Of a stretch of DNA of 26,789 nt, positions 10,733 through 21,590 are shown in pieces. The DNA is from a bacterium. Its GTDB lineage: Bacteria; B130-G9. The stretch spans positions 1 through 26,789 of the forward strand of contig JAGHCW010000136.1 in assembly GCA_021160245.1 (NCBI GenBank), read 5' to 3'. The stretch's first letter is position 1. Every line of letters begins with the position of its first letter. The notes below the pieces were generated by a model, which did not search any database, was not told the origin of the DNA, and saw only the letters and a list, made by a program, of their open reading frames with translations. The position numbers and the translations under genes were made by a program.

Positions 10733-12187
10733 ATGGTATTACAGCCCGTTATTGGTATTGAGGTTCACGTTCAGCTGCTGACTGAGAGCAAGGTATTCTG
10801 TTCTTGCAGCACACAGTTTGGCGCTGAGCCGAACTCAAACACCTGCCCCGTCTGCCTCGGCCTCCCCGGCGTCCTGCCGGTTCTCAATAAGAAGGTGGTG
10901 GAGCTCGCGGTCAAGGCCGCGCTGGCGCTCAACTGCGAGATAACTAGACGGAGCCAGTTTGCGCGGAAGAACTATTTTTATCCCGATCTGACAAAGGGCT
11001 TTCAGATAACTCAGTTCGATCTGCCGATCGCGACGAATGGCTATATCGACGTCGATGTCTCGGAGAACGGAGGCGAGGCGAAGACGAAGCGAATCAGGAT
11101 AAATCGCCTGCACATCGAGGAGGATTCGGGCAAGTCGCTTCATGGCGAGGCGCTCAACGTTGAGGGCACAAGCCTCATCGATTTTAACCGTTGCGGCGTC
11201 CCGCTGGTCGAGATCGTTACCGAGCCTGATATCGAGAGCCCGGAGCAGGCGCGGCAGTATCTTCTGAAGCTCAAGACGATTATGCAGTATTGCGGGATAA
11301 GCGACTGCAACATGGAGGAGGGCAGCCTTCGTTGCGACGCGAACATCTCGTTGCGCAACGAGGACGGGAGCCTCGGGACTAGATGCGAGATAAAGAATCT
11401 CAATTCATTCCGCTTCGCCAAGCGCGCGATCGAATATGAGATGAGGCGGCAGGCGGAGGTGCTTGAGGCTGGCGAAAAGGTGAAGCAGGCTACTTATGGG
11501 TTCAACGCGGCGACGGGAAAGACTTTTATGATGCGGACTAAAGAGGAGTCGCAGGATTACAGGTATTTCCCCGAGCCCGACCTCGTATTCCTTGAGGTCG
11601 ATGACGATCGCATCGAAGCGACGCGGAAGATGATGCCCGAGCTCCCCGACGCAAAGCGCGAGAGGTTGACGAAGCAGTATCGGATACCCAAGTATGATGC
11701 AATGGTGCTTTCGACCAGCCAGGAGATCGCCGACTATTTTGAGAAATGCGCCTCGCTTCATCCCAACGGAAAAGCGGTCAGCAATTGGGTGATGGGGTCG
11801 GTTCTCGGGCTATTAAAGGAGCGTAACATCGGCATCGCTGACTGCCCGGTTTCGCCGACGCGCCTCGCGGAACTGCTCAATCTGGTGGCTGACGGCAAGA
11901 TAAGCGGCAAAATAGCGAAGGATGTCTTTGAGCAAATCGTTGAGACGGGCAAGTCCCCTGAGGCAATCGTATCCGAGCAGAATCTCGGCACAGTCTCGGA
12001 CGAGAGCGCTATAGCCGACATCATCCGCGAGGTTGCTGATAAAAGGCCGGATCTTGTTGCGAAGCTCCAGTCGGGCAAGCTCAACGTGCTCGGATTCTTC
12101 GTTGGCCAAGTAATGAAGCGCACGAAGGGGCAGGCAGACCCGCAAATCGTCAACCAGATCATCCGAAAGGTGTTGCTGAAGGAATAG
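10733..12187 (+). CDS. gatB: Asp-tRNA(Asn)/Glu-tRNA(Gln) amidotransferase subunit B
   Basis: 484 residues, the normal GatB length. It starts VIGIEVHVQLLTESKVFC, followed by the Cys cluster FCSC...CPVCLGLPG (zinc site, about 21-45), the catalytic-cradle segments HIEEDSGKS and GVPLVEIVTEPD, then DYRYFPEPDL and a C-terminal YqeY-like helical domain (about 335-484) that handles tRNA. In the GatCAB complex, GatB phosphorylates the Glu or Asp on misacylated tRNA and receives ammonia from GatA. gatA and gatC are not in the window, so the operon is split. The start agrees with the family and is the first possible one. No ribosome site precedes it; a promoter directly upstream suggests leaderless translation. 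Confidence 0.96.
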   Translation: MVLQPVIGIEVHVQLLTESKVFCSCSTQFGAEPNSNTCPVCLGLPGVLPVLNKKVVELAVKAALALNCEITRRSQFARKNYFYPDLTKGFQITQFDLPIATNGYIDVDVSENGGEAKTKRIRINRLHIEEDSGKSLHGEALNVEGTSLIDFNRCGVPLVEIVTEPDIESPEQARQYLLKLKTIMQYCGISDCNMEEGSLRCDANISLRNEDGSLGTRCEIKNLNSFRFAKRAIEYEMRRQAEVLEAGEKVKQATYGFNAATGKTFMMRTKEESQDYRYFPEPDLVFLEVDDDRIEATRKMMPELPDAKRERLTKQYRIPKYDAMVLSTSQEIADYFEKCASLHPNGKAVSNWVMGSVLGLLKERNIGIADCPVSPTRLAELLNLVADGKISGKIAKDVFEQIVETGKSPEAIVSEQNLGTVSDESAIADIIREVADKRPDLVAKLQSGKLNVLGFFVGQVMKRTKGQADPQIVNQIIRKVLLKE

Positions 12188-12197
12188 AAACGCAGTC

Positions 12198-12224
12198 AGT
12201 GTAGGGCGGGCTTTCCAGCCTGCC
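12198..12224 (+). repeat. Dispersed hairpin repeat, copy 1
   Basis: AGTGTA followed by GGCGGGCT-TTCC-AGCCTGCC (stem 12205-12212 with 12217-12224, 8 bp including one G-T pair). It lacks a T-tract. The 14-nt core GGGCTTTCCAGCCT (12208-12221) and the preceding AGTGTA recur on the other strand at 23776-23803. Confidence 0.55.
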
Positions 12225-12284
12225 AGAGGATTCCGTCCGCAGATTACTCAGATTGACAGCCGGAGATGAATCCCTCCCTTATCT

Positions 12285-12311
12285 TCTCTGTGGAACTGTG
12301 TGTCTCTGTGG
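12285..12311 (+). repeat. Short direct repeat TCTCTGTGG x2
   Basis: TCTCTGTGG occurs at 12285-12293 and again at 12303-12311, an 18-nt period, inside an intergenic stretch that also reads as stock repeat-like phrases. I infer membership in a dispersed extragenic repeat family. Confidence 0.35.
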
Positions 12312-12409
12312 TGCATTCTTCTAATCAAGCAGACAGCCATCATTGGACAGGTTGGAAAGCGCGTCCTACAGATCAGAAATCAACAGAAATACGAGAAAAG
12401 GAGAGAGAG

Positions 12410-12844
12410 ATGGCAACCGAGAATCAAGATTCCATTCACGAGGAGCGCATGCACATCCTGAAGATGGTCGAGGACGGCAAGATCTCCGCGGACGAGGCAA
12501 CGGGTCTGCTGAAATCAGTCGGTGGCGGCATGTCCTACTTCACGACCAGCACCAAGTCCGCAGGGGCCGCGAAGGTCAAAGACAAGAAATCGCTGAAGGG
12601 CAAGAAACTGCGAGTACAGGTCTTTGAGGGCGACAAGGAAAAGCCTAAAGTGAACATCAAGCTTCCGCTTTCTTTGGCAAACTTCGCCGGCCGCTTCATA
12701 GCAAAGCACGGCAAGATCAAGATTGACGGACTCGATGACAACCTGGCCCCCTTGCTGGCCAACCTCGATGAGCTCGACGAGGAGACCAACATAGAGATCG
12801 ATGACGAGAAGGGCAAAACGCGCGTCAAACTCTCTATTGAGTAG
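12410..12844 (+). CDS. SHOCT-like domain protein (YvlB/LiaX N-terminal type)
   Basis: 144 residues. AAAGGAG (12397-12403) 6 nt before the ATG at 12410 sets the start; a longer in-frame start at 12266 would add residues read from the repeat-rich leader. Residues about 8-36 (HEERMHILKMVEDGKISADEATGLLKS) match the SHOCT-like helical hairpin. Residues about 60-144 hold the strand-rich partner region (KLRVQVFEGDKEKPKVNIKLPLSLA...NIEIDDEKGKTRVKLSIE) seen in small bacterial YvlB/DUF2089-associated proteins. There is no signal peptide or membrane segment, so it is cytoplasmic. Homologues are linked to envelope stress or anti-sigma-type regulation, but a specific role is not shown here. Rich in Lys, Asp and Glu. 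Confidence 0.8.
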   Translation: MATENQDSIHEERMHILKMVEDGKISADEATGLLKSVGGGMSYFTTSTKSAGAAKVKDKKSLKGKKLRVQVFEGDKEKPKVNIKLPLSLANFAGRFIAKHGKIKIDGLDDNLAPLLANLDELDEETNIEIDDEKGKTRVKLSIE

Positions 12845-12913: not shown

Positions 12914-15667
12914 CTAGTAGCCTATAGCCTTAAGCTGCTTCAGGTTGGATATCGTGCCCTGGGATTCGGGCTTCAGTCTGAGAGCCGCCTCCCACTCTTT
13001 CCTGGCGCTTTTGTAGTCCTTCCGCTTTGCGTAGGCCACACCAAGCGCGTTGTGCGCCTCGGCCGAGTTGGGGGCCAAGGCAATCGCGCGCCGGAAAGCC
13101 GACTCAGCCTCATCCGAGGCGCCGGTCTTGTCCAATAGCACTCCCATCGCCACGATTGTCTCGGCGTCGTTGGGCTGAATCTCGATGATTCGTCGATACG
13201 CTTGTATGGCCTGGCTGAGGTTGCCCGAGGCGATGGCGGCATCTTTTTGTGCTCTCAACGCCTCCACCGAGAGGCCCTCCAGCTCCTTCGACATCGTGTC
13301 TTGCATTTCAGCGGCTATGTTACTGCCAAGCTCGCTCTTTGCGAAACGCCCATCTCGCTTAGCAAGCGATGGCTCGAGCGCGAGTGCCCGCCTTAAGGAG
13401 TTTGACGCCTCGCTCATATCGCCCATTTTCTCTCTCAAGAATCCAATATCGGCATGAACAAGAGCATAGGTGGGGTCCCTCGCCACAGCGACCTCGAAGG
13501 CGGCCAGAGCCTCCTGCTGCCTGCCGGCGAGTTCAAAGACGACGCCCAAGTTCCGATTCGCTTCGGGATTAGCAGGCGAGAGGTCCCGAAGCCTCCCGGC
13601 GGTCTCGACGGCGTTGTCATAGTCTCCCAACTCAAGGTAGATGTTTACCAGCGACTTCAGAGCGGAGGGGAAGTTTGGCTCGATGCGCTCCGCGCTCCCA
13701 AATGCCTTTGCAGCCTCTTCCAGTCGGCCTTGTCCCTGAAGCAAGACGCCTATATTGAATCGCACGAGGTGATCATTCGGCCTCAGCTCGGCGATGTTTC
13801 GGTATTCATCAAGAGCCAGTTTCTTTTCCCCAAGGGCAACGGCTCTCTCGGCAAGCGTCTTGTGCATTATCATAATATCACCGGCCACATCACTCGCTAT
13901 CCTATAGAGTCGCAGAGCCACCTGCTTATTCCCCTGAGCATAGAACGAGTCACCAAGCTGTTGCTCTCGAACCATGGCCACGCAGCGAGACGTGTAGTCC
14001 TTGAAGATTGTGGGGTCATCAATGCCTCTTCGCTCAAATGTCTTGGATATGGCACGTTCCCAATCGGAATAGACCATGCTCTCAGCCGGTGGGACTGCAA
14101 TGCTGCCGAGGCCAATCGGCTTCAGGGCAAAATCCTCGATCGGGCCGAGGTCAACGCCGGGCACATATAGAACCGGGCTATTTCCGCTCTTCATAAGAAC
14201 ATGCTCCGCCTTCAGCTGGGCGCCCTTCCGCTGCTGCTGATCCATAAGCCGTATATTTTCTGGGTAGAAATCACGCCTCAGTATTCCTGAACGGTCAATC
14301 ATCTCGAGCCCGGGTTCTATGCCCTCAACGTGCTTGAGGAATAGCAGCGTGAATACTTCCATGTCGCGGTCAACCAGAACGACCGTGTCATCCTCTGGCA
14401 TCGATCTAATGACGTTCATGCCATAGTCATAGCTGAGCAGATTGCGGCTTTTGTCGCAGTAGAAGTAATTGGCACATAGCGGCATACCGATTACGAGCGC
14501 CATAACAACGGCTGCAGTGAATGAAAACGCACGTCGTCCAAGACGCCAACCGGAAAGCCTATCAAACAACCAAGCGATGCCTGGCGCGGCTAGAATGGCG
14601 GCGATTGCGAACGACGGGATGAAGAACACCTCAACTAAGGACTTATCGCGAGGGATCAACCTGAAGTTCGTATATAGTATGAAGAATAGACTACAGAGGA
14701 GAAAGGCCCCAATCAGCAAAATGAGCCTCTTCTCTCGTCTGCGAGCAAGGATTGCAGCGCCAATAATGGAAAACAGCGGCAGGATTGGCGTGAACTGCCT
14801 CAGCAGGAGCCCAAGATAATAGCGCGACTGCCCCATGAAGAGGGTGAGCGTTCTCTCAGCCTGGTCAGGGCTGCCATACGCTTTGCGCAACACTTGGCTC
14901 CAAAACGCCTGAAAAGTCCTTGCATCTCCCCAATTTAGAATCGGTCCCGTTGATGCCCTGAAGACGAGGTAGAAGTGCACCGAGGCGCCGAGAAGGCCCA
15001 GCAGCGTTGCGCCCAGAATCAGGCCAGGATCCTTGAGCACTCTTGGCTCACGAAAGACAACATAGACGACAAGCGCCGCAAGCAGAAGGGCGACCGTATG
15101 ATGGCTTGAGAGGCCGAGTCCACCGAGGAAGGCCGCGAGAAGAAGCAGTCTATTTTCTCTAGTGGCGCCTTTTCCTCGTTCCCAAAGAAATACGACAAAG
15201 AGAAGCATGAGAGCGAAAAGCAGTGATAGTGTATAAACCTCAGCAATTGTGGTCTGCGACCAGAAGGTTAGTGATACTGCAAACGCCGCAGCTGATACCG
15301 CCGCCCCTACACCTGCGAACCGCATTTGCCCCCTTAGCCCGTTCCCAGTAAAGCCAACGAGAAGTGAGAGCCTGTAAACCAGAAAGACGGACGAGGCGCC
15401 GAATATGGCGGACGCGAGGGCGGACCTTTGGGCGAATGAGCCGAACGGGAATAGGAAGCTGGCCAGTTTTAGGAGGAGAACGAAGATGGCGTATCCGGGT
15501 GGGTGGGGTATGCCGAGGCAGTTGGCCGCAGTCATCAATTCGCCGCTGTCGCCGACGTATATTGTGGGGCACTGCGTCTTGAGATATACGAGGAATGCGA
15601 TCACAAAGAGCGCAATGCCTGTCCAAAATTGACAGACATCGCGCCCAAATGAGTTTCGATATAACAA
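12914..15667 (-). CDS. DUF2723 (TMEM260-like) membrane glycosyltransferase with C-terminal TPR domain
   Basis: 917 residues from a TTG at 15667. The N-terminal half has about 11 membrane segments. The first extramembrane loop contains GDSGELMTAANCLGIPHPPGY (key residues Asp40, Glu43 and His55-Pro-Pro-Gly-Tyr59), diagnostic of DUF2723, a GT-C fold family related to the GT39 O-mannosyltransferases; its animal member TMEM260 mannosylates proteins. From about residue 575 to the end are some nine TPR units, e.g. GRLEEAAKAF, GDYDNAVETA, GRQQEALAAF and GASDEAESAF, which should lie outside the membrane and bind protein. The gene starts 26 nt after the surface-protein stop and is surely in its operon. 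I infer that it glycosylates exported protein, possibly its neighbour. Confidence 0.85.
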   Translation of the reverse strand: MLYRNSFGRDVCQFWTGIALFVIAFLVYLKTQCPTIYVGDSGELMTAANCLGIPHPPGYAIFVLLLKLASFLFPFGSFAQRSALASAIFGASSVFLVYRLSLLVGFTGNGLRGQMRFAGVGAAVSAAAFAVSLTFWSQTTIAEVYTLSLLFALMLLFVVFLWERGKGATRENRLLLLAAFLGGLGLSSHHTVALLLAALVVYVVFREPRVLKDPGLILGATLLGLLGASVHFYLVFRASTGPILNWGDARTFQAFWSQVLRKAYGSPDQAERTLTLFMGQSRYYLGLLLRQFTPILPLFSIIGAAILARRREKRLILLIGAFLLCSLFFILYTNFRLIPRDKSLVEVFFIPSFAIAAILAAPGIAWLFDRLSGWRLGRRAFSFTAAVVMALVIGMPLCANYFYCDKSRNLLSYDYGMNVIRSMPEDDTVVLVDRDMEVFTLLFLKHVEGIEPGLEMIDRSGILRRDFYPENIRLMDQQQRKGAQLKAEHVLMKSGNSPVLYVPGVDLGPIEDFALKPIGLGSIAVPPAESMVYSDWERAISKTFERRGIDDPTIFKDYTSRCVAMVREQQLGDSFYAQGNKQVALRLYRIASDVAGDIMIMHKTLAERAVALGEKKLALDEYRNIAELRPNDHLVRFNIGVLLQGQGRLEEAAKAFGSAERIEPNFPSALKSLVNIYLELGDYDNAVETAGRLRDLSPANPEANRNLGVVFELAGRQQEALAAFEVAVARDPTYALVHADIGFLREKMGDMSEASNSLRRALALEPSLAKRDGRFAKSELGSNIAAEMQDTMSKELEGLSVEALRAQKDAAIASGNLSQAIQAYRRIIEIQPNDAETIVAMGVLLDKTGASDEAESAFRRAIALAPNSAEAHNALGVAYAKRKDYKSARKEWEAALRLKPESQGTISNLKQLKAIGY

Positions 15668-15693
15668 ATGCCTACACGAAGGACGCTGCCTCG

Positions 15694-18600
15694 CTATTCG
15701 ACTACGCTAAGATACGGGAAGAAGGTGCTCTTGTGGCCTTCTTTGTCCACGACTGCGATTTCTATAACGTGGTGTCCTCTCTCTCCGCCGGCGATGAAGC
15801 AGCTGGCGCCATAAATGGCCCTCTGGCCATCGGACGTGAGCCCGTCAAGCTGAACGCCCTCGAACTCAATCGATGTGTCCGCCTCGCGCCTGGTCGCCTC
15901 AACCGTCGCCACGTTGGTCGGCCCATTTGGATCATTAACTATCACATTGAACTGAACCTGGCCGCCTCTATTGACATCCACGTTTGAGCCGCCAAAGCCC
16001 GCGAGGAGTATTTCCGGATACGACACCAGGAACTCACGACTGCGCACGCCTCGAATGGCGTCAAGTATGTAGTTCTGTAGATTGATATCCAAGGATCCGC
16101 CCTTACTCGTCTCACCATACGCTGCGCCATCGGCGAAACTGCCCATAATGGAAGAGCTCGGAGTCGCAACGGCCCGAGGATTAAAGTCCGGGTAGTCATC
16201 TATCGTCACATACGGCCATACGTTACTGTGATTGCCCTCATAATCCGTGGCGATCACCTCAAATGTATAGTTCCCACTGCAGATGCTTCCCGCCTCCACA
16301 TCGGAATAGTATGCATAGACGCCGTCTCCGGCGAGGCCATCGTAGGAGTTTCCATCGTCCTTCAAATCGACCATCGGCAAGCCATTATAGCAAAGCTGCA
16401 CCACAGCAATGTCATTATCAGGGTCCGTGCAATAGGCTACTACATGGAACTTGCCTCCGAATCTCTCGGAAATGTGAGTGCCATAATAGCCGGCCATCCA
16501 CACCCGAGGCGGCATTGAATGCGTCGCGGGCGGGTTACTGTGGACGGGGTCTGAGACTTTCGGGCCATCTATCGCTCCAGCGCTCGGATACAGCCATCTT
16601 TCGCTCGCCGCGTCGGCGAAAACGAAGTAGTGATTGTAATCGCCGGGGGTGAGAACTACCGTCGCCCCGAAGAACCCATTGGCCTCGTCTCCCTCAAGCA
16701 GGGAAAGCGGATATTCAGAATCGCCAATCACGAGTTTCGCCACGGACGGTGGATTCATGTTCTCGTCATAATAGTGAATCTTAAACTCGTATCTGGTCGC
16801 GCTCTTGCCGACTGAGTTGAAACTTGCATTCGAGAAATTGGGGCCCCTACTCTGCGCTGCACGGTCCTTCAGAGCATAGAACTTCTCCTCTGAACCGAAA
16901 TAAACGCTTCCATCCGGCCCAATTGCGGGGGAGCTATGAATGAAATAGCCGGCGCTCGTCCTCTGTGGATCGTGGAAGCGCCACAACAGCGAGCCATCCT
17001 TGCCCAGGCAATAGAGGTTGCCGTCGTGGGAACCAAAGATGATGTTGCCGTCTCCGTCTATGGCCGGCGATGTGTATATCCTGCTGTTCGTCTCGAACGT
17101 CCAATTAACCGTGCCGGCCTCAGCGTCAATCGCGTAAAGCTTGTGATCGTATGAACCGACATAGAGCACGCCATCATCGGAAAGCGCCGGTGATGAGTGG
17201 ACGGTGTGGTCAGTATAGACCCGCCATTTGAGCGTGCCGTCAGAGTTAATCGCAAGAATCCTGTTGTCGTAGGTCCCGAGATAGACTGTCGCATTCGGCC
17301 CGACAACAGGCGAAGATGTGATCACGGCGCCCGTGTCGTAGCTCCAGCGAGGATTGCCATCGTGCCTCACGGCATAGAGCATGTGATCATCAGAGCCAAA
17401 GAATACCGTCCCGTCGAACCATATCGCCGGTGAGGACGTAATCCAGCTACCGGTCTCGAATCGCCATCTCAGTTCGCCAACTGGCGTCATCGAATAGAGA
17501 TAGTTGTCACTGCAGCCGAAATAGACATTTCCGTCAATCCCGATCACAGGTGAGGAATCGACCGCGCCCCCGGTCTTATAGGACCACTTAAGCGAGCCAT
17601 CCGGCTCATAGCAGTAGAAGCTCTCGTCCCCCGATCCAACGAAGAGGCAGCCATTCTCGTCAAGCGCCGGGGTTGAGGCGACATAATCGCCGGTGCTTGC
17701 CACCCATTTCCTTGTGCCATCGACATTGAGCGCGTAAATGTTGCCATCGTAGCTGCCAAAATAGACGATGTTATTTTCGTCCACGACAGGCGAGGAGATT
17801 ATGTAGTCGCCTGCAATGAAGCTCCAATTCAGCGTCGGTGACGAGGTCGCGCTTACAGGGGAGCAGGCCGTATGGTCTGGGTCGTGCCCGAACATCGGCC
17901 ATGCAGGGCCTCTCTCGTCCGGCAAAACGGTCGGCCCATAGTAATGAACTGGAACCTCGCCAGTCTCCGGAAGGCGAACAATACCGGCGCCGCTTCCACC
18001 TTCAAACTCAAACCAGAAGGTGTGGTAGCCAACCTTTAGCGAAGTTGCGTACACAAATGTACCTTGCCAAGCGTCCCCGGCGTTCACAGCCATCGTCCTG
18101 GGCGAGCCATCGATATAAACGAGAGCCGAGGCCGGAGCGACAAGGTCCCTATCAAAGAAATCTACACTGTATGTAAACTGCGTCCTGGTCGATCCTATGT
18201 CAGGCGTGACCTGGCCGAATGCTAGTCCGATATTGTCACCCGTCCTGAAGCAGAACGTCTCCTGGTCTGTGTTCGGGCAAAGCTCAAGGTCTGACGCCTC
18301 AATGCGAACGCAGATCATTCTGTCCGAGGCAAATGGCTGGCCCGGGATATAGCTGTACCGGTAACCGTTTGCAGAGTCCGCTCGAATGATAAGTCCGCCG
18401 TTGTAGTTCTGGTCCACGCCTTCCTTAAGAACGTACACATAACCGTTGCCGTCAGTGTGATTGACCCTGATCGACACGGTGTTCGGGTCCACGCCGCTGT
18501 CGGCGTCCGTGATGCTTGCAGAGATGATCGTGTTTGTGGAGACATCGACCGAGCTCGGCGCGGGGAAGATATCTCCGAAGACCGGCGGCGCCGGATCGAT

Positions 18601-21228
18601 AGCGAAGTTAGGCACCGTCTGAAAAGGCTCGAATATCGTTATGCCCGAAATCGCGTCGCCATTGCCGTCTCCGTCACCCGATGGACCGTCAATAGCGCCC
18701 CACCAGTTGTTTCGAGCGTCAATCACGGGCTGGGGTTGAAGGTTCACAACACCAAAATTTTCGTTGTTGACTATGTCGTTGGATTGAATAATCGGCATCG
18801 CGCCGTTCGGGTCGCTGAAACCTTCATCCGTCTCGCACAAGACACCATTGCGATTGCACATGATGCCGTTCTTGATTATCTGAGGAGATGACATCTTGCT
18901 GTGTGCGTAACAGTGGATACCAGCCTCCTCAAATAGCGTAATTATGTTGTGCTGGATAATCGGCGAACAGCTGTCAATGAGCAATGATGTCCCATACTTG
19001 AAGACACATTCTTCGACCTTGTTATTGTTGTTGTTCTCATACTTGATATGGCCCCAATCCCCGGGCCTCGGCATAGGCGTCGGGCCAGTCAGGAGAATCG
19101 AGCCACCTACCGTATCGTCGTTGAATGACGTGACGTAGATTCTGTCCCTGGACGTGCCGTCAAGGACAAGCTGCCCCTTAGCATAGATGCTCATGTCAGC
19201 AGCCATCTTGATTATCGTGCCCTGAGGCACCAGAACCGCAGCATCCTCGACCACGACTTCAAAGGGATCCCCCGACTCCGCAACACCGGACATGTCGTCG
19301 GCAACCACGATGGCAGTATTCGAATTCGACACAATCGCGAAGTGTGCGTCGCTCTTCGTATTCGGATAAAGACGGGAACCTGTAAGAACGTTTCTCTTCC
19401 AGTCCGCGCTCACATCGACCAAAATATCGTAAACACCCGTCAGCGCGTCGCTGGGCGAGATAGAGGTGGAAAGGCCTGTCAATCTGTAACCACCCGCGAT
19501 CACCACAGGATCTATGACGGCGTAGGGATAGTTATAGCCCGTTACATCATCCCAAGTCGCCCCCGCGCCTCGTATAGTTCCGCCTATTCCGACTGCGCGG
19601 TAGTAGTTGGTCGTCAGTTTGTTTCCTATATATTGGGGATCGCATGTTCCAAGAAGCGTGAGCGGAAAACCGTAGTTATGAGTCAGACTGTTGTCCTGGA
19701 GTATTGGCTCGCAAGGACCGAGATAGTCACTACCCGTCTCGAGGCATATTCCGCCACCTTCATAAAGACCAAGACTCGCGTCAACCACATGACCGCAATC
19801 GCTGATTACATTGCGAGAAATCTCAGGCCTTGCTGGGTCAGACTCAGCGTAGATGTAAAGGCCGTAAGAATAGTTGTTCGAGATGTGGTTGTTAATGAAC
19901 GCTGGAGAGCTCTGGTCGATCATCACATAGCGACCATAGCTGATGAAGCAGTTCGCAATCAGACATTCATCGCAGCATATCTTGAAGCAGCCCCAATCGC
20001 CGGCGGCCGGCATACTGGAACTGCCCGGAACTCGCAGACCAAAGACGTCATTATGCAGTGATGTAAGGTAATTTGGAGATGGACCGTCGTCCGAAGTCTC
20101 GATATTACCGAGAATCTCGAAGTTCGTCCCCTCCGCAAATTTAACCACACATCCCGGCGGCAACCTGAGACCGCACCCCGGCGAAATCGTTAGATCATCC
20201 AGAACAAGAAACGGAAGAGGCAGGAACTGATTTGAGGCAACTGCGCTATCGTCAACCTGTGGGAAGAAATAGTCTGTATATTCAAACTCCCCGCTCCCGT
20301 CTATCTGAATGCCGGGCTTTATGTAACCCTTCACGCCGATCGCGGAAACGAACGCGTCGTCGCCTTCTCGCTGGCGAATTATATTCCCATCGGGAAATGG
20401 GTTCACAAGCTGTCCATCCACGTCCAACATCACGGGCAACGTATTCTCAAACACAATTGGCAAGCCGCCTCGCGATACGTCAGGATCACTGCTCATGACG
20501 ATGTCGTTGAAGTTCACGATCGGCACGCTGAGGCCGTATGAATAAGGCGGTGTGTAGCAATATATGGCATTGCCAGCGTCGTACTGGTCGTTCATGTCCA
20601 AGTCCTGGTATTCCTCTTGACCAGGATCGAACTTCCCATTCTCGGGATTGTCATCGGTGTATGGCTCACCAATATCGACTATTGTGTTGCACTCCAATGT
20701 CGGGTTCACCAAAATATCGTGTGCCACAATCCGGAAGCCATAGCGGCTGAAGTTCTCAATGCGATTGCCAAAAAGATACGGAGAACAGTTCTCGATTTCT
20801 ATCGACTTCCCATAGCGGAAAGTACTGCTCTCAAACCGACAATCGTGATGATAGATGTGGATCGAGTTCCAGTCGCCGATTTCAGGCTGTCCCGAGCTCT
20901 CCTCCCAAGAGCCGTCAGGTGTGGAATCATCGTTAATCGATGTGAAAAGCGCCTCCTGCGCGATCAATACGCCCTCAACAAAAATGTCAACGTGGGCGCC
21001 GAGCTTCACAATCGTGCCCGGCATGATGGTCAACTTAACTCTATCAGTCAGATCATTCGGATTGACGTCATGAACGTAAAGATCACGCGTCAAGACAATC
21101 GGATTCTCACTTGGATCCCAAACCGTATCCTCTGTTATCTGGTATTTGGTCCACTCGCCGGCTTGGCAAAAGGCAAGGCCAACTAGAAAGATAAATACCG
21201 AGCAAATCGCAACTCGCCTGAATAGCAT
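15694..21228 (-). CDS. Giant exported protein: triplicated beta-helix-like modules plus eight-unit PQQ-type propeller
   Basis: 1,844 residues. The ATG at 21228 is preceded by GGAGGAG and opens a clear Sec signal peptide (LFRRVAICSVFIFLVGLAFCQA). Three modules of about 120-170 residues follow, near 63-177, 345-480 and 663-833. Each runs: a PGT/PGC..VK strand, ...TS.NDD/HND..., GDW, C.F.YG, SP.I..N.I. Module 3 ends with NNWWG...GP, typical of NosD-like beta-helices. Between 1 and 2 is an Asp-rich, EF-hand-like segment (NGKFDPG...DLDMNDQYDAG). Ig-like domains follow (about 880-1130), then eight ~40-residue PQQ-like repeats (about 1135-1455) of the W....TG....SP...DG.VYFGS.D..LYA..DG type, then C-terminal Ig-like domains with DGLAGDGVY. 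No LPXTG or barrel anchor is seen. Probably a surface or secreted adhesin or matrix protein. Confidence 0.85.
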   Translation of the reverse strand: MLFRRVAICSVFIFLVGLAFCQAGEWTKYQITEDTVWDPSENPIVLTRDLYVHDVNPNDLTDRVKLTIMPGTIVKLGAHVDIFVEGVLIAQEALFTSINDDSTPDGSWEESSGQPEIGDWNSIHIYHHDCRFESSTFRYGKSIEIENCSPYLFGNRIENFSRYGFRIVAHDILVNPTLECNTIVDIGEPYTDDNPENGKFDPGQEEYQDLDMNDQYDAGNAIYCYTPPYSYGLSVPIVNFNDIVMSSDPDVSRGGLPIVFENTLPVMLDVDGQLVNPFPDGNIIRQREGDDAFVSAIGVKGYIKPGIQIDGSGEFEYTDYFFPQVDDSAVASNQFLPLPFLVLDDLTISPGCGLRLPPGCVVKFAEGTNFEILGNIETSDDGPSPNYLTSLHNDVFGLRVPGSSSMPAAGDWGCFKICCDECLIANCFISYGRYVMIDQSSPAFINNHISNNYSYGLYIYAESDPARPEISRNVISDCGHVVDASLGLYEGGGICLETGSDYLGPCEPILQDNSLTHNYGFPLTLLGTCDPQYIGNKLTTNYYRAVGIGGTIRGAGATWDDVTGYNYPYAVIDPVVIAGGYRLTGLSTSISPSDALTGVYDILVDVSADWKRNVLTGSRLYPNTKSDAHFAIVSNSNTAIVVADDMSGVAESGDPFEVVVEDAAVLVPQGTIIKMAADMSIYAKGQLVLDGTSRDRIYVTSFNDDTVGGSILLTGPTPMPRPGDWGHIKYENNNNNKVEECVFKYGTSLLIDSCSPIIQHNIITLFEEAGIHCYAHSKMSSPQIIKNGIMCNRNGVLCETDEGFSDPNGAMPIIQSNDIVNNENFGVVNLQPQPVIDARNNWWGAIDGPSGDGDGNGDAISGITIFEPFQTVPNFAIDPAPPVFGDIFPAPSSVDVSTNTIISASITDADSGVDPNTVSIRVNHTDGNGYVYVLKEGVDQNYNGGLIIRADSANGYRYSYIPGQPFASDRMICVRIEASDLELCPNTDQETFCFRTGDNIGLAFGQVTPDIGSTRTQFTYSVDFFDRDLVAPASALVYIDGSPRTMAVNAGDAWQGTFVYATSLKVGYHTFWFEFEGGSGAGIVRLPETGEVPVHYYGPTVLPDERGPAWPMFGHDPDHTACSPVSATSSPTLNWSFIAGDYIISSPVVDENNIVYFGSYDGNIYALNVDGTRKWVASTGDYVASTPALDENGCLFVGSGDESFYCYEPDGSLKWSYKTGGAVDSSPVIGIDGNVYFGCSDNYLYSMTPVGELRWRFETGSWITSSPAIWFDGTVFFGSDDHMLYAVRHDGNPRWSYDTGAVITSSPVVGPNATVYLGTYDNRILAINSDGTLKWRVYTDHTVHSSPALSDDGVLYVGSYDHKLYAIDAEAGTVNWTFETNSRIYTSPAIDGDGNIIFGSHDGNLYCLGKDGSLLWRFHDPQRTSAGYFIHSSPAIGPDGSVYFGSEEKFYALKDRAAQSRGPNFSNASFNSVGKSATRYEFKIHYYDENMNPPSVAKLVIGDSEYPLSLLEGDEANGFFGATVVLTPGDYNHYFVFADAASERWLYPSAGAIDGPKVSDPVHSNPPATHSMPPRVWMAGYYGTHISERFGGKFHVVAYCTDPDNDIAVVQLCYNGLPMVDLKDDGNSYDGLAGDGVYAYYSDVEAGSICSGNYTFEVIATDYEGNHSNVWPYVTIDDYPDFNPRAVATPSSSIMGSFADGAAYGETSKGGSLDINLQNYILDAIRGVRSREFLVSYPEILLAGFGGSNVDVNRGGQVQFNVIVNDPNGPTNVATVEATRREADTSIEFEGVQLDGLTSDGQRAIYGASCFIAGGERGHHVIEIAVVDKEGHKSTFFPYLSVVE
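16864..17826 (-). repeat. Eight tandem PQQ-type propeller repeats (protein level)
   Basis: Eight consecutive units of about 120 bp, each coding for one blade. Every unit begins at a Trp (W.F/W.Y) and contains SSP or STP and a V/I-Y/F-F/V-G-S or G-T-Y-D strand followed by L-Y-A/C. The DNA copies have diverged, so this is an old duplication inside the gene and not a recent tandem array. Confidence 0.85.
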
Positions 21229-21590
21229 CTGCGCTCCTCCATAATGTGACCGAACATCTTGCCCAAACAGCCCTAAACAGGCCCTGGTCAAGCGTGCCCA
21301 GCGTCAATATGCCGCTTCTGGAATAATGGTTCTATTGATCTATCTTTATTATAGCCACGTCTAACATACCTGTTTTTTCACGCCATTCAAGTCTTTTCTG
21401 AGGTGCAATCACCATCGAGAGAGCCGGCGAGGAGGAAAAACAACTCATCTCCAGCTCAATTCGCCGCAATCACAACCAGACCGAAGGGGGTGAACGATAC
21501 CTCTTGCATGAGCTCAAGCCTCAGGCGGGGCCAATCCCATCAGTCGCTTTCTCCCTTTCTCCCATCTCCATTCATATTCTAAGAATACAA
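21229..21590. other. Intergenic interval upstream of the surface-protein operon
   Basis: 362 bp. It holds GGAGGAG for the minus-strand surface protein, a perfect minus-strand -10 TATAAT (21353-21348) whose -35 is poor (AAAACA, 17 nt), and a nested inverted repeat at 21568-21599 that spans the stop codon of the nuclease-like gene. No coding sequence is supported here. Confidence 0.5.
21348..21376 (-). promoter_or_regulatory. Candidate promoter for the surface-protein/DUF2723 operon
   Basis: A perfect TATAAT on the minus strand (21353-21348) with a weak -35 (AAAACA, 21376-21371) at 17-nt spacing. The start near 21341 would leave a leader of about 110 nt. Confidence 0.4.

Follow-up and report, generated by a model that had tools for sequence, protein, structure and literature searches.

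The protein encoded at 12914..15667 on the minus strand of the DNA analysed here (26,789 nucleotides, hereafter the window) is probably a bacterial protein O-glycosyltransferase of the TMEM260 type, which would use a polyprenyl-phosphate hexose and act on exported proteins in general. The product of the gene directly upstream, an exported protein of 1,844 aa (15694..21228, minus strand; hereafter the giant), is a plausible substrate, though neither an exclusive nor a demonstrated one. The homology, fold and catalytic-loop residues of the enzyme, the presence of a donor-synthase homologue in the genome and the co-inheritance of the two genes are all observed. The original prediction went further and took the pair for a dedicated surface-protein glycosylation unit, in which the TPR array of the enzyme specifically recognises the giant and the two genes form an operon whose purpose is to produce the giant in glycosylated form. 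We consider this unlikely, given that the contiguity of the genes is broken in two related genomes, that no recurrence above background is seen across lineages, that sister genes of the enzyme have unrelated neighbours and that the Ig-like modules of the giant are shared with other proteins.

Family, fold and proposed activity of the enzyme

The 917-aa enzyme is a DUF2723/TMEM260-like (GT117) protein consisting of a GT-C glycosyltransferase part (residues ~9-540) and a C-terminal helical TPR array (~558-914). Pfam places it in PF11028 (TMEM260-like) at 107 bits, where the curated cut-off is 24.2, and also recognises TPRs. By phmmer the catalytic half, residues 17-469, matches the TMEM260 structure 9rql at 5.9e-45, with the GDSGE and HPPGY motifs aligned. 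In the enzyme, the first extracytoplasmic loop carries GDSGE at 39-43 (including D40 and E43) and HPPG (H55); among 62 homologues D40 and H189 are invariant (62/62 each), and E43 and H55 are found in 60/62 and 61/62, respectively. The AlphaFold model, computed from 62 aligned sequences, has a mean pLDDT of 92.6 and superposes on the structures of OST, Pmt4 and Pmt1-Pmt2 with Z of about 26-27 and rmsd 4.3-4.8 over about 380-440 residues. Since 9rql is absent among the structure matches listed for the model, other GT-C enzymes had to serve for the structural comparison. Taken together, sequence profiles and model support the view that the protein is a TMEM260/GT117 homologue with a predicted GT-C fold followed by a TPR array. 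The kinship of DUF2723 to O-mannosyltransferases, as first proposed, is thus borne out by the Pfam and 9rql matches, the GT-C model and the invariant first-loop Asp. A search for close relatives in a collection of named genomes returned one weak TPR-only match.

In the mechanism that we propose, the GT-C half would be embedded in the inner membrane, its D40/E43 loop on the periplasmic side. A hexose, probably mannose, would be drawn from a lipid carrier charged by a DPM-synthase homologue and passed to Ser/Thr residues of proteins under export, and the periplasmic TPR array may contribute to the choice of acceptor proteins, in line with what has been proposed for TMEM260 and the TMTCs (PMC11292533). 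A lipid-linked donor pathway is plausible because the genome encodes a dolichol-phosphate-mannose synthase homologue (contig C66), which matches 5mlz at 1.4e-29 and is 53% identical to a GT2 gene located near a DUF2723 gene.

The acceptor could also be a glycan or a lipid instead of a protein. The enzyme would then modify a cell-envelope glycan, a lipid A-like lipid or an exopolysaccharide, and its place beside the giant would be a historical accident. The GT-C enzymes ArnT and AftB, fold relatives that modify lipids or glycans, align with the enzyme model too, and glycosyltransferases of glycan synthesis are encoded close to some other DUF2723 genes. Exported-protein neighbours, moreover, are not enriched around DUF2723 genes (see below). 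Counted against a protein acceptor, along with the ArnT and AftB alignment, is the frequency of the D(S/T)(A/I/L/M/T/V) motif in the giant, which is not enriched (5 sites versus 7.3 expected in shuffles), but this consensus is that of Bacteroidota and the organism need not use it. However, among proteins of known function the closest in sequence is TMEM260, which O-mannosylates proteins, and a long TPR array fits protein binding. We therefore regard a non-protein acceptor as doubtful and favour exported proteins.

Organization of the gene pair

The reading frames and the signal peptide agree with the prediction of an exported 1,844-residue protein and a DUF2723-TPR protein encoded 26 nt apart on the same strand. 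The open frame of the giant extends over 1,865 codons (15694-21291, minus strand), and translation from the ATG at 21228, which is followed by the signal peptide, yields the 1,844-aa product. The enzyme gene lies downstream, its TTG start 26 nt from the stop codon of the giant; this TTG is the sole early start in the frame and is not preceded by a clear ribosome-binding site. The two genes are presumably co-transcribed. A pattern scan revealed a 16-bp RNA hairpin at the beginning of the enzyme coding sequence (15608..15646, minus strand; fold z = -3.6 for 15595-15700), with a weak T tract, where the transcript might be attenuated or processed between the two genes. A promoter scan was uninformative (2 found versus 7 expected). 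On the opposite strand, gatB and a DUF2089-C/SHOCT gene (10733..12844, plus strand) are convergent with the pair.

Domain architecture of the giant

Pfam, profiles, the model and the orthologues define a signal peptide, a beta-helix, Ig-like domains and an 8-bladed PQQ-type propeller flanked on its other side by further Ig-like domains (residue numbers are those of the 1,865-codon frame). The beta-helix region (about residues 61-879; 18655..21110, minus strand, as are all domains given here) is single copy and family-specific, and was recognised by a PF13229 match and a weak NosD match. It is followed by an Ig-like domain of type A on the N-terminal side of the propeller (residues 1023-1111; 17959..18225), found with a genome-internal profile and through the matches of the A3 profile, and by the PQQ/BamB-like propeller itself (residues 1152-1475; 16867..17838), modelled at a pLDDT of ~90. 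C-terminal to the propeller are a second type A domain (residues 1494-1572; 16576..16830, genome-internal profile), a type C domain with a choice-of-anchor X match (residues 1594-1697; 16201..16512, profiles) and a second type C domain at the C-terminus (residues 1758-1863; 15703..16020, genome-internal profile). The beta-helix and propeller that had been read from the translation are corroborated by Pfam (Beta-prop_ACSF4 233 bits, PQQ_2 102 bits, Beta_helix 41 bits) and by the confident 8-bladed model, which gives Z of 50.8 to the designed Cake8, 42 to YxaL and 37-39 to BamB. As for the giant being a surface protein, export is backed by its signal peptide; its location at the surface is presumed, as no recognised anchor was found except the choice-of-anchor X match.

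The Ig-like label holds for the giant, because its profiles match solved Ig-like domains, namely those of a biofilm-associated surface protein (1.8e-8) and of a multidomain protein (1.7e-14; A3, type A), together with weak matches to antibody and cadherin structures. The fold has to be argued from these profiles since, in the model of the C-terminal half (built on a four-sequence alignment), the propeller alone is confident and the Ig-like parts mostly have a pLDDT of 20-70. It had been pointed out that TMEM260 acts on Ig-like (IPT) domains and that Ig-like domains flank the propeller of the giant. Ig-like domains do occur on both sides, but Pfam and profile searches gave no IPT/TIG (PF01833) match in the giant, nor in any of 56 related Ig-like domains, and by sequence the domains rather appear to resemble bacterial adhesin types. 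Furthermore, many other exported proteins of the same genome contain the Ig-like modules found in the giant, so that these do not single it out as a substrate. Giant exported propeller/Ig-like proteins abound in the source genome (on contigs C86, C162, C17, C74, C142 and others), with open frames of up to 3,628 aa and about 20 PQQ-propeller ORFs in all.

Conservation of the pair and of its sister genes

The bacterium belongs to a group that has seldom been sampled. Four genomes of its family, from three genera, were compared, and each carries both genes together; any other sampled genome is no closer than the same domain. In the three genomes other than the source (G001, G002 and G003), orthologues of the giant are 60-69% identical and those of the enzyme 54-59%, and the joint occurrence of orthologues at 54-69% identity in three further genomes implies that the pair is not due to chance. 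The beta-helix half is conserved at 69%, and among 60 genomes only G001 and G003 match this region at E<=1e-10, the G002 contig beginning past it. The joint presence of both genes in all four genomes, the conservation of the single-copy beta-helix half (69%) and of the enzyme (54-59%) and the Ig-like domains in the giant are what one would expect if the enzyme were dedicated to its neighbour, all the more so since the TPR parts of the human homologues TMEM260 and TMTCs have been proposed to recruit Ig-like substrates (PMC11292533).

Tight contiguity of the genes, however, is not conserved. G001 has 24 nt between the genes and has also retained gatB and the DUF2089-C gene next to them. In G002, by contrast, the genes are separated by 203 nt containing a strong, perfect GC-rich hairpin (L101, about 2465-2495) that lacks a good T tract, and in G003 they are parted by an insertion of ~2 kb (L102:6308-8086) with two ORFs, the first of 516 aa and weakly matching papain-like proteins (phytochelatin synthase), the second of 74 aa; this insertion may possibly be a toxin-antitoxin-like or mobile cassette. 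These interruptions speak against an operon that exists for one substrate.

The same conclusion follows from the other DUF2723-TPR genes of the source genome, which has three in total. The two sister genes, on C190 and C240, have as upstream neighbours a thioesterase gene (overlapping) and a metallo-beta-lactamase gene (1 nt away), both closer than the giant at 26 nt, and these unrelated neighbours are also kept across genera: G001 retains both, and G003 the thioesterase. Conserved adjacency is thus common to all three paralogues, whatever the function of the neighbour. The best explanation is that the pair has been kept because local gene order was inherited vertically within one family.

Neighbourhoods of DUF2723 genes in other lineages

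DUF2723/TMEM260-like genes were found in 73 of the 193 sampled genomes, and we surveyed the neighbourhoods of 140 such genes, mostly from other lineages. Using a crude home-made signal-peptide rule to call export, exported operon-adjacent neighbours were not enriched (19/154 versus 128/787 in controls; 12% versus 16%, p 0.27). Propeller proteins adjoined DUF2723 in five cases, three in the family plus L151 and L181, two unrelated cases in which the neighbour is a short PQQ propeller protein; with 10 propeller ORFs among the 1,566 ORFs of the surveyed neighbourhoods, the two cases outside the family are near background. The expectation that DUF2723 genes would recurrently be found beside PQQ-repeat secreted proteins was consequently not confirmed across lineages, which again argues against a dedicated unit. 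GT2/DPM-like genes were modestly enriched next to DUF2723 (14/246 versus 16/605, p=0.04).

Two further loci came up in the survey. In G037, the genes for a DUF2723 protein, a GT2 glycosyltransferase and a 1,344-aa exported S8 peptidase/FG-GAP/Ig-like protein form a tight cluster (L123:7210-13838); here DUF2723 is independently found grouped with an exported Ig-like protein. In G132 (L216:8889-14504), a DUF2723 gene is followed after 51 nt by a gene for a 1,192-aa exported Ig-like protein with a type IX secretion sorting tail. Overall, such clusters of DUF2723 with large exported Ig-like proteins are not above background. The negative result of the survey indicates that gene adjacency alone is unfit for naming substrates of the DUF2723 family.

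Comparison with known systems

A literature search found no paper using the name DUF2723, nor any under 'glycosyltransferase family 117'. The closest known system is TMEM260 (GT117; 9rql), the O-mannosyltransferase for IPT domains, with which the enzyme shares a homologous catalytic half (17-469) and the GDSGE and HPPG motifs, and whose C-terminal extracytoplasmic module is said to hold TPRs. The enzyme differs in being bacterial and in having a clear, long TPR array, and the Ig-like domains of its neighbour resemble those of bacterial adhesins, with no IPT domain found. TMTC1-4 (GT105) and their prokaryotic homologues (PMC7801869) likewise combine a GT-C membrane half with a following TPR array, and the animal enzymes act on Ig-fold (cadherin) substrates, but by sequence the enzyme is a PF11028/TMEM260 relative and no TMTC profile match was seen. 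As full-length prokaryotic TMTC-like homologues with TPRs were already known (PMC7801869), the enzyme belongs to a known kind.

The general O-glycosylation system of Bacteroidota resembles the proposed activity in that it modifies many exported proteins; here, in contrast, the giant shows no excess of the D(S/T)X motif, and no glycan cluster is seen within the window. The giant shares its 8-bladed PQQ-type propeller with the exported YxaL and the lipoprotein BamB, but in the giant it lies inside a 1,844-aa chain that also contains a beta-helix and Ig-like domains. One could imagine that the TPR array is specialised on the Ig-like domains of the adjacent giant, which would make the pair a bacterial counterpart of animal domain-specific O-mannosylation in which gene order would point to the substrate, a view that we find rather improbable. 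How TPR arrays select Ig-fold acceptors is a question left open by the human work (PMC11292533), and a bacterial member of the family with a candidate Ig-like substrate encoded next to it would offer a simple system in which to address it.
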